From Actinomycetota bacterium (lineage in GTDB: Bacteria; Actinomycetota; UBA4738; HRBIN12): a stretch of DNA of 38,762 nt. Below are positions 1 through 3,095 of this stretch, in pieces (the first letter of the stretch is position 1; every line of letters begins with the position of its first letter). The position numbers and the translations under genes are program-made. The notes under the pieces are model-generated. The model had not been told where the DNA came from and did no database searches. It worked only from the letters and a program-made list of their open reading frames with translations. The DNA lies in NCBI GenBank assembly GCA_005885035.1, contig VAXZ01000115.1, positions 1-38,762 on the forward strand. Reading direction: 5' to 3'.

Positions 1-257
1 AGGCGACCGGTGTCCAAGGTGAAGACGCGGACGTCCGGGTTGATGCGCCACGCCATGTCCATCAAGGCCAAGCCGTCGATGCCGCCCGCGGCACTGATCG
101 CGATCCGAGGGTGGAAGGTGCCCAGTGCCCAGGCGAGCAGCTCCTCGGCGCGCGCCCCTTCGAAGCGGTCGGCAGCGTCACGGACCCAGCCGGCCTCCTC
201 GCCGAGGAAGGGAACGGCGGGCTCGTGGATAGGTTGGATCGGGTCGGTGTCTGCCAT
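1..257 (-). CDS. cysH: Phosphoadenylyl/adenylyl-sulfate reductase, N-terminal part (cut by window edge)
   Basis: Not in the ORF track because it runs off the window; I translated it from the reverse strand. Starting at the ATG at 257 it gives about 85 residues. The block RIAISAAGGIDGLALMDMAW followed by INPDVRVFTLDTGRL matches the PP-loop nucleotide-binding start and the FTLDTGRL motif of the PAPS/APS reductase family. These enzymes reduce activated sulfate to sulfite in assimilatory sulfur metabolism. The typical SFG(A/S)ED of the PP-loop reads SAAGGID here, so the loop is slightly divergent. Whether it prefers APS or PAPS depends on the C-terminal cysteines, which lie outside the window. 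It is preceded by a long leader with a Cys-rich short ORF and a hairpin. Confidence 0.85.
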   Translation of the reverse strand, partial: MADTDPIQPIHEPAVPFLGEEAGWVRDAADRFEGARAEELLAWALGTFHPRIAISAAGGIDGLALMDMAWRINPDVRVFTLDTGR

Positions 258-294
258 GGGTCGTCCCTCGAACGCCTGGACGTCGGAGCCGGAC

Positions 295-324
295 AAGAGA
301 AAGGCCGCCTGCGCGGCGGCCCTT
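295..324 (-). terminator. Terminator-like attenuator hairpin in the cysH leader
   Basis: On the reverse strand AAGGGCCGCC-GCGC-AGGCGGCCTT folds into a GC-rich stem of about 9-10 bp with one G-T pair, followed by the T-rich run TCTCTT. It sits between the Cys-rich uORF stop (347) and the cysH start (257), where an attenuator would be. A competing pairing is possible. GCCGCTGCGC inside the uORF (377-368) can pair with the GCGCAGGCGGC of the loop and 3-prime arm, with one bulge, which would break the terminator. Confidence 0.5.
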
Positions 325-346
325 GAGGTCGATTGCGAGCGAGGAG

Positions 347-451
347 CTACCGCACGGGGTGGCCGGCGCGCAGCGGCGCCGTCGCGGTACAACAGCACAG
401 GCGACTGGGGATCATGGCCCCGACCTGGCCGACCGTTCGTGTGCGGATCAT
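347..451 (-). CDS. Cys-triplet leader peptide upstream of cysH (putative attenuator uORF)
   Basis: This short ORF of 34 codons lies in the cysH leader and is too short for the ORF track. It begins at the ATG at 451, with an in-frame ATG at 415 that would give 22 residues. The core reads PSRLCCCTATAPL, with TGC TGT TGT at 397-389, and it stops with TAG at 347. A purine-rich GAGGGAG lies about 12 nt upstream of the first ATG. Poly-cysteine short ORFs are known in mycobacteria as cysteine-responsive attenuators of sulfur-assimilation operons. The position here fits that role: after a promoter, 22 nt before a terminator-like hairpin, and before cysH. The first ATG is 30 nt from the predicted transcript start, so this uORF would not be leaderless. 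The function is inferred. Confidence 0.6.
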   Translation of the reverse strand: MIRTRTVGQVGAMIPSRLCCCTATAPLRAGHPVR

Positions 452-473
452 CGCGGAACGTGGCTCCCTCGAA

Positions 474-487
474 GTTGCAGGTGCAAC
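474..487. promoter_or_regulatory. 14-bp palindrome overlapping the predicted cysH transcript start
   Basis: GTTGCAGGTGCAAC has perfect 6-bp arms around a 2-bp centre and lies directly after the predicted -10 box, across the expected +1. That is a typical repressor operator position. The regulator is unknown. It could alternatively be a small RNA stem at the 5-prime end of the leader. Confidence 0.35.
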
Positions 488-516
488 AGGCTACCGACGG
501 CTCCCGAACCCGTCAA
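488..516 (-). promoter_or_regulatory. Promoter of the cysH leader transcript
   Basis: On the reverse strand TTGACG (516-511) is separated by exactly 17 nt from TAGCCT (493-488). The -35 box matches the vegetative consensus in 5 of 6 bases, and the -10 box keeps the key T1, A2 and T6. It lies just downstream of the cyclase stop codon, so cysH has its own transcript with about 225 nt of leader. Confidence 0.55.
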
Positions 517-523
517 GGGAAGA

Positions 524-2185
524 TCACACCCCGGGAGGGGCGAATGAACCCACCCAGAGGGCGCCGTCGGCGAACTCGAGGGACTGCACTGTTGACGAGA
601 TGGGGATCGTCTGGATCGCGAGGTTCGCGTTCGGGTTGACTTCGGTGACGGTTCCGTTCCCATGGTTCGCCACCCAGACGGATCCGCCTCCGATCGCGAC
701 GGCGGTAGGCTCCTGACCGACGCTGACGTCTTGGATCCCGGAGGGATGGTGAGGAGCGATCCGGAGCAGCTGGTCGTCCTGACCATCACTCACCCACACG
801 GATCCCGCTCCCACGGCGATGCTGGTCGGATCGCCCTGCAGGGGGATCGGGGGCTCGGCGCGATCCGTGCCGGGGTCGATCGCGGTTAACGTCCCGCCGA
901 ACCGATCGACAACCCACAAGGAGCCTTCCCCGTAGGCGAGGAGATCGATGGTGACGCCTGCGCCGAGTCGGATCGTGTCGATCGGACGGCCGGTGGACGG
1001 ATCGACCCGGTAGATCGTGCCGGAGGATCCGTTCGCGAGCCAAACGCTCCCCGCCCCCCACGAGACGGGAGCGTTGAACGATAGGAACTCGCCTCCTGGC
1101 CGCGTGACACTAGGGTCCACGATCGTCGCCTTTGCCGACAGGCCTGTCGTAGCGTCGATGCGCTCGAGGCCGAGTCCCTCGGGCACGAGGACCGAGACCC
1201 ACACCGCGTGGGCGGAAGCAGCCATGCACGTCGCGGGAGAAAGGCACGCCCCGGGGGCGGGAATCTCTTTCGCGACCTGGGGCTCGGCGTATCCAGGATT
1301 GATCTGGAACACGCCGCCGCTTTCGAACGCGGTCGTCTCGGTCAAGGCCCAGATGGAACCTCCCGCAGACACGATCGGCCCGGCGCTGATCCGTTGGAGA
1401 TACACGGGCTGCACCTGGTCGACGGTTGTCGTTGGGTTGACCTTGAACAGTGTCGCGTAGCCGTTCGCTTGGGACGTTTGGGGCGACGGTGGACCGTTCG
1501 TTCGGCCCGACGAAGCCTCGCGCGCGATCGCGACCACCGCGACGGTGATCGCGATGACGCCAGCGATGAGGCCGACGAGGAGCGTCCGAGCTCGTGTTCT
1601 TCCGGTGGGCCGATCCGAGCTCGAACGCGTCCGGCGTTCGACGGCCTCAACCCGGTCAAGCGGCGGTCCGAGAGCCACCCCTTCCACCGCGTCGAGCGCG
1701 AAGAGACGCCACGAGCCCGGGATGCCTTTGAGCTCGTAGGTTCCCCGTTCATGGAAGTCGAGGCCGGAGCCGGAGACAAGGTCGACGATCGTCTGGGTCA
1801 CCAGCACCTCTCCCGGTGCAGCCAGGCTCGAGACGCGGGCCGCGGTGTGCACGGCGATCCCGCCCGCTCCGCCGGCAGACAGCTCCGTCTCCCCGAAGTG
1901 GAGTCCCGCCCGCACCTCGAGGCCGATCGACCGCGTCGCAGGCAAGATCGCTGCCGCGCATCGGACTGCGTCCTGGGGGATGCGGAACCGCGCGAAGAAC
2001 GAATCGCCGGCCGTGTCTATCTCGTGGCCACCGAAACGGCGGAGCTCTCGGCGGATCAGGTCGTGGTGGGCGGCTTGGAGCTCGCGCCATCGACGGTCAC
2101 CGACCTCCACGGCGATCTCCGTGGAGCCCACGATGTCGGTGAAGAGCAACGCTGCGAGGTTCCGGCCCGCAGCACGCCGCGACAT
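524..2185 (-). CDS. Membrane-anchored class III cyclase-like protein with extracellular beta-propeller
   Basis: The protein has 553 residues from the ATG at 2185, which sits one transcript-start distance after a -10-like box. The ORF track uses a GTG at 2272 that would overlap the upstream gene. Residues 10-165 form a class III nucleotide cyclase domain, with LLFTDIVGST (Asp17) and AGDSFF (Asp61) as the two metal aspartates. Residues 201-222 form one transmembrane helix. The C-terminal part has several GxGSVWVxD / IDPxTG blades of a Vgb/NHL-type propeller, predicted to lie outside the cell. The usual substrate-specifying Lys is Asp57 (EIDTAGD), and the usual transition-state Asn is His113 (AVHTAARV). 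cAMP or cGMP synthesis is therefore doubtful. The domain order suggests an outer ligand sensor acting on a cytoplasmic cyclase-like domain. Confidence 0.85.
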   Translation of the reverse strand: MSRRAAGRNLAALLFTDIVGSTEIAVEVGDRRWRELQAAHHDLIRRELRRFGGHEIDTAGDSFFARFRIPQDAVRCAAAILPATRSIGLEVRAGLHFGETELSAGGAGGIAVHTAARVSSLAAPGEVLVTQTIVDLVSGSGLDFHERGTYELKGIPGSWRLFALDAVEGVALGPPLDRVEAVERRTRSSSDRPTGRTRARTLLVGLIAGVIAITVAVVAIAREASSGRTNGPPSPQTSQANGYATLFKVNPTTTVDQVQPVYLQRISAGPIVSAGGSIWALTETTAFESGGVFQINPGYAEPQVAKEIPAPGACLSPATCMAASAHAVWVSVLVPEGLGLERIDATTGLSAKATIVDPSVTRPGGEFLSFNAPVSWGAGSVWLANGSSGTIYRVDPSTGRPIDTIRLGAGVTIDLLAYGEGSLWVVDRFGGTLTAIDPGTDRAEPPIPLQGDPTSIAVGAGSVWVSDGQDDQLLRIAPHHPSGIQDVSVGQEPTAVAIGGGSVWVANHGNGTVTEVNPNANLAIQTIPISSTVQSLEFADGALWVGSFAPPGV

Positions 2186-2191
2186 AGCCAG

Positions 2192-2220
2192 ATTGTCCGC
2201 GGTCTCGCTCGAGCGAACAA
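2192..2220 (-). promoter_or_regulatory. Leaderless-type promoter of the cyclase gene
   Basis: TTGTTC (2220-2215), a 17-nt spacer and GACAAT (2197-2192) precede the ATG at 2185 by 6 nt. This places +1 on the ATG itself. It is the main reason for choosing this start over the GTG at 2272. Confidence 0.45.
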
Positions 2221-2249
2221 GGCGCCCCGCCGCCAGTGGGGACGGGCTG

Positions 2250-3095
2250 TCACAAGGAGGCGACGCGGCCACGCTCTTCGGGAGTCAACCCGCGGAGCGG
2301 CAACCGGACGTCGGCGTGAGCCAGCACACCTTCGTTCAGGAGCACCTGTTTCGCGACCGCGGGCAACGACAGGTCGCGGAGGGCTTCGCGAAGGGCTTTG
2401 ACGCGAGCATCGGCGGCGTCGGTCTTCCGGTGCACCAGCTCGGCGGTGACCTCGGGCCACGCCGACGCCAGACCGGACACCGCCCCGACCGCTCCCGCGG
2501 CGAGCCCTTCCAACACGAGCGGCTCGAAGCCGATGAAGACGTCCAGACCGTCCAACAGGTAAGGCTTCACCGCTTCGAACGGCGTGTCCGACACCTTCAG
2601 CCCCGCCAGGTTCGGCACCTCGTCGCGCAGCCGTTCGATCACGGGGATCGGGACCGGGTAGCCGCTCCGCCCGACGAACTCGTAGATGTAGAACGGCAGC
2701 GGGTCACACGCGACGGCGGCGTTCCGGAAGTGATCGAACAGCTCCCTTTCGTCCAGCGGGAAGTACGGGGGAGCGATCACGGCGACGGCGTCGGCTCCGG
2801 CCTCCCGCGCGTGCGACGCGAGCGCGACCGTATCCGCGGTCGTCTGCGCGCCGGCGTGGACCGCGACCGCGAAACCGGACGGGCGCGACTCCAGACAGAG
2901 CTCCGTCATCCGGCGCCGCTCCGGCACCGAGAGCAGCACGCCCTCGCCCGTGGTGCCGCACGTGAGGACCCCGTCCATGCCGCCCTCGGCGAGGAAGCGG
3001 ACCAACGGAGCCACGCTGGCCTCATCCAGGGAGCGGCCGCCGTCACGCAGCGGCGTGACGGTGGCCGCGATCGCACCGTGGAGCTTCCCGAGCAT
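2250..3095 (-). CDS. Dihydrodipicolinate synthase/N-acetylneuraminate lyase family aldolase
   Basis: A complete 281-residue TIM-barrel aldolase of the DapA/NanA superfamily. The pyruvate-binding loop CGTTGEG lies at residues 46-52. The general-acid Tyr is probably Tyr138 in YIYEFVGRSG, and the Schiff-base Lys is Lys167 in AGLKVSD. The Tyr region differs from the YNVPxRT of true DapA, so I would not call it lysine biosynthesis. Sugar-acid aldolases and dehydratases such as KDG or 2-keto-acid lyases share this fold. It starts 17 nt after the aceA stop on the same strand and also has its own -10-like box, TACCCT, 6 nt before the ATG. The pairing with isocitrate lyase suggests a role in C2/C3 keto-acid turnover, but this is only inferred. 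Confidence 0.88.
   Translation of the reverse strand: MLGKLHGAIAATVTPLRDGGRSLDEASVAPLVRFLAEGGMDGVLTCGTTGEGVLLSVPERRRMTELCLESRPSGFAVAVHAGAQTTADTVALASHAREAGADAVAVIAPPYFPLDERELFDHFRNAAVACDPLPFYIYEFVGRSGYPVPIPVIERLRDEVPNLAGLKVSDTPFEAVKPYLLDGLDVFIGFEPLVLEGLAAGAVGAVSGLASAWPEVTAELVHRKTDAADARVKALREALRDLSLPAVAKQVLLNEGVLAHADVRLPLRGLTPEERGRVASL

Follow-up and report, generated by a model that had tools for sequence, protein, structure and literature searches.

Cysteine leader peptides and the cysH locus

Mycobacterial upstream open reading frames (uORFs) have been described ahead of cysA2, Rv0485 and nirA (Shell 2015, PMC4633059), and cysteine-responsive attenuation in M. smegmatis is credited to Canestrari 2020 in passages of three later papers (PMC9031893, PMC9094748, PMC13236596), two of which (PMC13236596, PMC9031893) speak there of translational attenuation as the mechanism. 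Earlier work predicted cys leader peptides for Mycobacterium, Propionibacterium and Bifidobacterium and found no conserved terminator hairpin (Seliverstov 2005, PMC1262725). In the classical attenuators, for example the trp and ilv leaders of Corynebacterium and Streptomyces and M. tuberculosis ilvB1 (PMC13236596), a leader peptide with control codons is followed by an intrinsic terminator-like hairpin.

The locus that we describe here lies at the start of a 38,762-nt window (the whole stretch of DNA analysed; contig VAXZ01000115.1 of assembly GCA_005885035.1) from an actinobacterium, and all of its features are on the minus strand. A short open reading frame with three Cys codons stands between a promoter and a biosynthetic gene, cysH, and a terminator-like hairpin follows it, as in the classical attenuators. 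We read the element as a cysteine-responsive leader-peptide attenuator of cysH and of the sulfite reductase gene behind it, made up of uORF, hairpin, antitermination and a promoter factor, and on the strength of sequence comparison we put the probability of this reading at roughly 0.7. With the mycobacterial polycysteine leaderless sORFs (cysA2/Msmeg_5788, nirA, Rv0485) the element shares a short, Cys-rich uORF that comes first in the transcript, its recurrence within one genome (three loci in the source genome) and its place before orthologous or equivalent sulfur genes (the rhodanese CysA2/SseA and sulfite reductase). Unlike those leaderless sORFs, the cysH uORF starts about 30 nt past the predicted start site; further differences are the terminator-like hairpin at cysH, the ATG, GTG or TTG start codons used by the uORFs, a palindrome at the promoter and a peptide core that matches no Ms5788A model. 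Like the leaders of Seliverstov 2005 (PMC1262725), it lies ahead of cys operons and has a run of Cys codons close to its uORF stop; those leaders resemble our tusA leaders (see below) in having no terminator, whereas our cysI/cysH leaders have a conserved terminator-like hairpin.

What does the locus look like in detail? The promoter consists of a −35 hexamer TTGACG (511-516), retained in two same-genus genomes and taking the form TTGAC(A/G) in the majority of leadered relatives, and, after a 17-nt spacer, a −10 hexamer TAGCCT (488-493), conserved within the genus, from which the start site is predicted. The uORF (347-451; 34 codons and a stop) encodes MIRTRTVGQVGAMIPSRLCCCTATAPLRAGHPVR; its first 20 codons (392-451) form the conserved core MIRTRxxGxVGAMIPSRLCC (E=1.2e-13 at this locus with core profile A2), and codons 19-21, TGC TGT TGT (389-397), are the predicted ribosome stall site, with Cys19 present at 45 of 45 loci and Cys20 at 36. 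Beyond the hairpin (300-324), a weak Shine-Dalgarno-like TCGAGG (266-271) precedes the ATG of cysH at 257. A sequence-only reading of this DNA had placed the promoter, the 34-codon uORF, the Cys triplet, the hairpin and the cysH start as given here, and a check of the sequence bore out every coordinate.

Only the first 85 codons of cysH (3-257) are present because the contig starts inside the gene, and by Pfam alone the fragment is a weak match (PF01507, E=8.6e-4), as it is to CysH models. Same-genus orthologues are 94-95% identical to it over its 85 residues, and the complete one (in G002) is a clear CysH, whose gene overlaps by 4 nt with that of a sulfite/nitrite reductase behind it. Across the three genomes of the genus, 87-97% of positions are invariant in the −10 box, uORF, Cys codons and hairpin, compared with 0-23% in the DNA upstream of the promoter (further than 80 nt ahead of the uORF start); between roughly the −10 box and a point beyond the hairpin, the leader is conserved at least as well as the start of cysH (about 80% invariant). 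Judged by this conservation within the genus and by the recurrence of the uORF core at 44 other places, the leader is more than a chance arrangement. Single-sequence and generic methods give no signal: the leader folds no more stably than its shuffles (z=0.44), promoter and terminator scans return terminator-like sites at the background rate with no excess over chance, and an Rfam search yields nothing above the gathering score. The one Rfam match, to isrD over 297-347 (29.2 bits against a cut-off of 37), we take as probably due to chance. Just upstream of the promoter, an open reading frame (524-2272, minus strand) encodes an adenylate/guanylate cyclase domain and a repeat-like C-terminal half; the sequence in this position differs in the two other genomes of the genus (G001 and G002).

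A leader-peptide family ahead of sulfur genes

DNA similarity revealed the uORF again in other genera, ahead of their cysI-cysH operon, and elsewhere, and a profile of the 20-residue core recovers 45 copies in 20 of the order's 27 genomes (all at E<=3.3e-8, with the following match at 0.011). Among the 297 phylum genomes profiled, matches are confined to the source order, and the core is absent from the roughly 270 others. The source genome itself carries three copies, before cysH (C147), sseA (C4) and tusA (C35). A DNA pattern scan of GTDB r220 returned 17 stretches, 14 of them from actinobacterial MAGs, one from an unclassified bacterial MAG and two from Rhodobacterales (L101, L105), the last two probably chance matches. 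The genes 3′ of the 45 leaders are cysH or cysI-cysH in 10 cases, a two-domain rhodanese of the SseA/CysA2 type in 15, and TusA followed by a DsrE-like protein in 17. The proposal that a cysteine-codon leader peptide precedes a sulfur-assimilation gene is supported across the family, and a comparison of the relatives finds both the Cys codons and the terminator-like stem conserved, where their absence would have refuted the sequence-only reading. We regard the leader-peptide family, as defined by sequence, as real, conserved and new as a family; its nearly identical core heads three or more kinds of sulfur operon, which makes a built-in cysteine gauge very probable, and these sequence data make a cysteine-sensing role of the leader likely. 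Rarer genes behind the core encode DUF3303 proteins (two cases: L092 in G021 and L160 in G020), which suggests a sulfur link for the DUF3303 family, and a carbonic anhydrase (one case, L147; G026:C79:1614-1670).

The most surprising feature of the family is that the peptide is conserved beyond its Cys codons and is joined to two architectures. Eight residues (Thr4, Arg5, Gly8, Val10, Met13, Pro15, Arg17 and Cys19) are invariant in all 45 cores while synonymous sites vary widely (pS 0.54, pN 0.22; pN/pS 0.41 across all loci, 0.26 for the cysI/H class), and therefore the peptide itself is under purifying selection; since third positions vary while residues stay fixed, the conservation does not stem from recent copying. 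Could the nascent peptide itself be the sensor? In such a scheme MIRTRxxGxVGAMIPSRLCC would pause the ribosome, with cysteine or a sulfur metabolite as the signal instead of Cys-tRNA hunger. Seven of the invariant residues are not cysteine, and codon counting needs none of them; a few members, moreover, among them G007a, G015a, G012a and G016a, have a single Cys codon at positions 19-20. Against these points, Ms5788A-type leaders also have a conserved core even though Cys-tRNA limitation is the account reported for them, and the core matched no arrest-peptide family. We therefore consider an arrest peptide a doubtful explanation that nevertheless deserves a hearing.

Conservation at the peptide level, together with a palindrome at the promoter, would also be expected if the uORF encoded a functional small Cys-rich protein, such as a metal or sulfur carrier, with regulation at the promoter only. 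This we judge very improbable: both the length of the peptides (22-38 aa overall) and their sequence are free past the Cys codons, in nearly every case the peptide stands directly before a sulfur gene, and codon 20 (392-394 at cysH) keeps one synonymous codon, TGT in 35 of 36 cases despite a GC3 of 84%, which a protein would not need. The remaining core Cys codons are nearly all TGC. By sequence, the TGT preference at codon 20 is a nucleotide-level constraint on top of the peptide constraint, for which decoding speed or RNA pairing may be the reason.

How does the family relate to those already catalogued? Ms5788A is an NCBI family named after a mycobacterial uORF. Its models (NF042933, leader_Ms5788A; NF042934, cis_reg_atten) likewise describe a Cys leader peptide with a conserved core upstream of SseA/CysA2 orthologues; that core is RRAVDLCRVxxCLC, different from ours. 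Among 30 other actinomycete loci upstream of SseA, five carry RRAVDLCRVxxCLC-like peptides, and the three of these that were tested match Ms5788A and "putative leader peptide" models. By contrast, 20 members of the present family gave no match to NF042933 or NF042934 at E<=10, and we rejected homology between the cores after a profile comparison (hhalign probability 0.3%). The core being unmatched by the Ms5788A family, the device is apparently of the known kind but built on a new peptide unrelated in sequence; in other words, by sequence and by analogy, the leaders would work like the mycobacterial devices at orthologous genes while standing outside their sequence family. Unlike in the classical attenuators, the peptide is conserved far beyond the control codons. 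Ribosome-sensed cysteine control would thereby extend to an uncultured actinobacterial order, at orthologous genes and through an unrelated peptide, and the family offers a clean case for several questions. Do such peptides evolve independently, why are they conserved beyond the control codons, and how does one sensor become joined to different outputs? Additionally, the core profile finds unannotated leader genes and outlines a regulon with a candidate operator and a candidate regulator.

The hairpin and its proposed mechanism

In the attenuation model that we favour, ribosomes would translate the uORF, and where Cys-tRNA is ample they would reach the stop codon, the hairpin at 300-324 would form and transcription would tend to end before cysH. 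Where Cys-tRNA is scarce, ribosomes would stall at Cys codons 19-21 and leave the uORF end (347-367) free; this possible antiterminator segment, which is weakly complementary to the 5′ arm and loop of the hairpin, would then pair with the 5′ arm, and RNA polymerase would read into cysH. A transcription factor at the promoter would add a further layer. For the stalling on low Cys-tRNA we infer by analogy from the mycobacterial systems.

The hairpin, HP2 (AAGGGCCGCC-gcgca-GGCGGCCTTT), is conserved in nine of ten cysI/cysH leaders and seven of 15 sseA leaders; it is lacking in all 17 tusA leaders. The core GGCCGC/GCGGCC is kept in 16 of 16 hairpin-bearing leaders (one with a G-U pair), and the flanking pairs covary: at positions +1 to +3, with pairs counted from an anchor on the GGCCGC core because an alignment of the hairpins with MAFFT (A4) misplaced some 5′ arms, standard pairs fill 34 of 42 cells where shuffles give 25.1, a count reached by none of 20,000, in a test that is somewhat lenient because the hairpins were picked as best stems. 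In the cysI/cysH leaders and in some of those before sseA, the hairpin lies 22-42 nt past the uORF stop and the 5′ leader is roughly 30 nt long. At cysH, the tail (286-299) starts CTCTTG and is moderately T-rich (five T in 14); those of relatives mostly contain T and end in (G/T)TTCC about 8-10 nt past the stem. The T-tract is poor (4-5 T in 14 nt), a point against the attenuator model. The pattern GGCCGC..GCGGCCnTT occurs in just one further place in the source genome; judged by sequence, the hairpin is not the generic terminator of the lineage. On balance, termination of transcription by the hairpin at 300-324 is probable.

Would the leader switch as the model requires? A fold model of the source genus (three genomes) gives the terminator stem a probability of 0.04 when the ribosome sits at Cys20 and of 0.95 when it stands at the stop codon, and in G010 the values are 0.01 and 0.96; this predicted loss of the stem on stalling and its formation at the stop are what attenuation demands. 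The expectation that the ribosome's position would decide the fold is borne out only in part of the family, however: 12 of the 16 leaders with the hairpin keep the stem in both ribosome states, and shuffles of the source-genus leader lose it under a stalled ribosome 7-13% of the time. An antiterminator is thus predicted in the source genus and G010 only, a further difference from the classical attenuators. The competing pairing proposed in the sequence-only reading, between uORF bases 368-377 and the loop plus 3′ arm, found no backing (Z=−0.21, 14 leaders). Complementarity instead appears between the uORF end (−21 to +9 around the stop) and the 5′ arm plus loop, above dinucleotide shuffles (Z=−2.75, 14 leaders; control segments Z=+0.94 and +0.19); when partners were swapped between the 14 leaders, pairing energies were equal (p=0.78). 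This position-specific complementarity weakly suggests an antiterminator at the uORF end. We also considered a hairpin inside the uORF tail and set it aside, the signal being weak overall (Z=−2.3) and missing at the cysH leader itself.

Several sseA leaders (those of the source genus, for example, are leadered and without a hairpin) and all tusA leaders are hairpin-free, which counts against the attenuator model and speaks for translational attenuation, the mechanism reported in the cited passages on mycobacterial uORFs (PMC13236596, PMC9031893). Here the ribosome stalled at the Cys codons would block an RNA structure that hides the ribosome-binding site, and the hairpin would be structural instead of a terminator. 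The predicted accessibility of the downstream Shine-Dalgarno region hardly shifts between ribosome states in any class, however (means without a ribosome, with a stalled one and with one at the stop: cysI/H 0.30/0.29/0.31, sseA 0.37/0.41/0.38, tusA 0.23/0.24/0.24), and leader-dependent masking of the downstream gene was not seen in these predictions. Translational attenuation is accordingly unlikely in our estimate.

The tusA uORFs are near-leaderless, by start sites inferred from their promoters, and start right after the promoter palindrome or a variant of it with one or two changed bases (with G017 as the exception). The idea that the leadered, hairpin-bearing form might be a separate design from the mycobacterial one stands in so far as this form is conserved in cysI/cysH and about half of the sseA leaders. 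Its peptide is shared, though, by tusA leaders of the same genome, which are near-leaderless and lack the hairpin; thus one sensor peptide would serve two different outputs. What might the tusA output be? In 11 of the 17 leaders the last Cys codon opens a hairpin whose loop often contains the uORF stop, an arrangement matched by at most 6-9% of shuffles, and the uORF-tusA spacer is C-rich and G-poor in 17 of 17 (C 0.46, G 0.24). Both features would suit Rho-dependent attenuation, as once proposed for mycobacterial cys leaders (PMC1262725), with the cysH hairpin as an added intrinsic terminator; the spacers of other leader classes are C-rich too, and we hold the Rho proposal only tentatively, as a possibility with somewhat better prospects than either an arrest peptide or translational attenuation.

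A promoter palindrome and a candidate sulfur regulon

Immediately 3′ of the −10 box lies a palindrome, TTGCACCTGCAA (475-486). Neither this palindrome nor the presence of the same peptide elsewhere in the genome figured in the sequence-only reading. The 2.5-Mb source genome has five copies, three of them at the three leader promoters, and 18 of the order's 27 genomes contain 57 exact copies between them, against two for the reversed control; in most family f1 leaders the palindrome overlaps the predicted start site or promoter. Like the peptide, its Cys codons and the hairpin, it is conserved and tied to sulfur genes. These counts make the palindrome a candidate transcription factor operator of an order-wide sulfur regulon, and a second layer of control, by a transcription factor acting on the same regulon, is likely from the sequence.

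Which factor might this be? One of the two other source-genome copies precedes a FUR-family regulator gene (L170 1277-1969; G000:C110), where TTGCACCTGCAA is accompanied by a near copy, GGCACCTGCAAATCC. The FUR-family protein is a candidate regulator because its own promoter carries the palindrome, and it is possibly the factor that would act at the cysH promoter. FUR-like genes adjoin the palindrome also in G001, G005, G009, G011 and G014. A bolder combination would make the family a new class of nascent-peptide sensor. Cysteine or a sulfur metabolite would then cause ribosomes to arrest on the core through its sequence as such, and the one sensor would feed two outputs in the same genomes, an intrinsic terminator at cysI/cysH and sseA and, at tusA, a near-leaderless form with its hairpin at the Cys codons, under a shared FUR-family operator; we think this improbable, on a par with translational attenuation, and keep to the Cys-tRNA attenuator as our reading.

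The remaining source-genome copy of the palindrome stands, without a leader peptide, before a JAB-adenylyltransferase-ThiS-like operon (L169 1501-2977; G000:C69), which by gene order and domains is of the mec-moeZ-cysO type. Several genera have the palindrome ahead of operons of the mec type and ahead of FUR-family genes, and JAB-like genes lie 3′ of it in seven further genomes, including one (G022) from another family.
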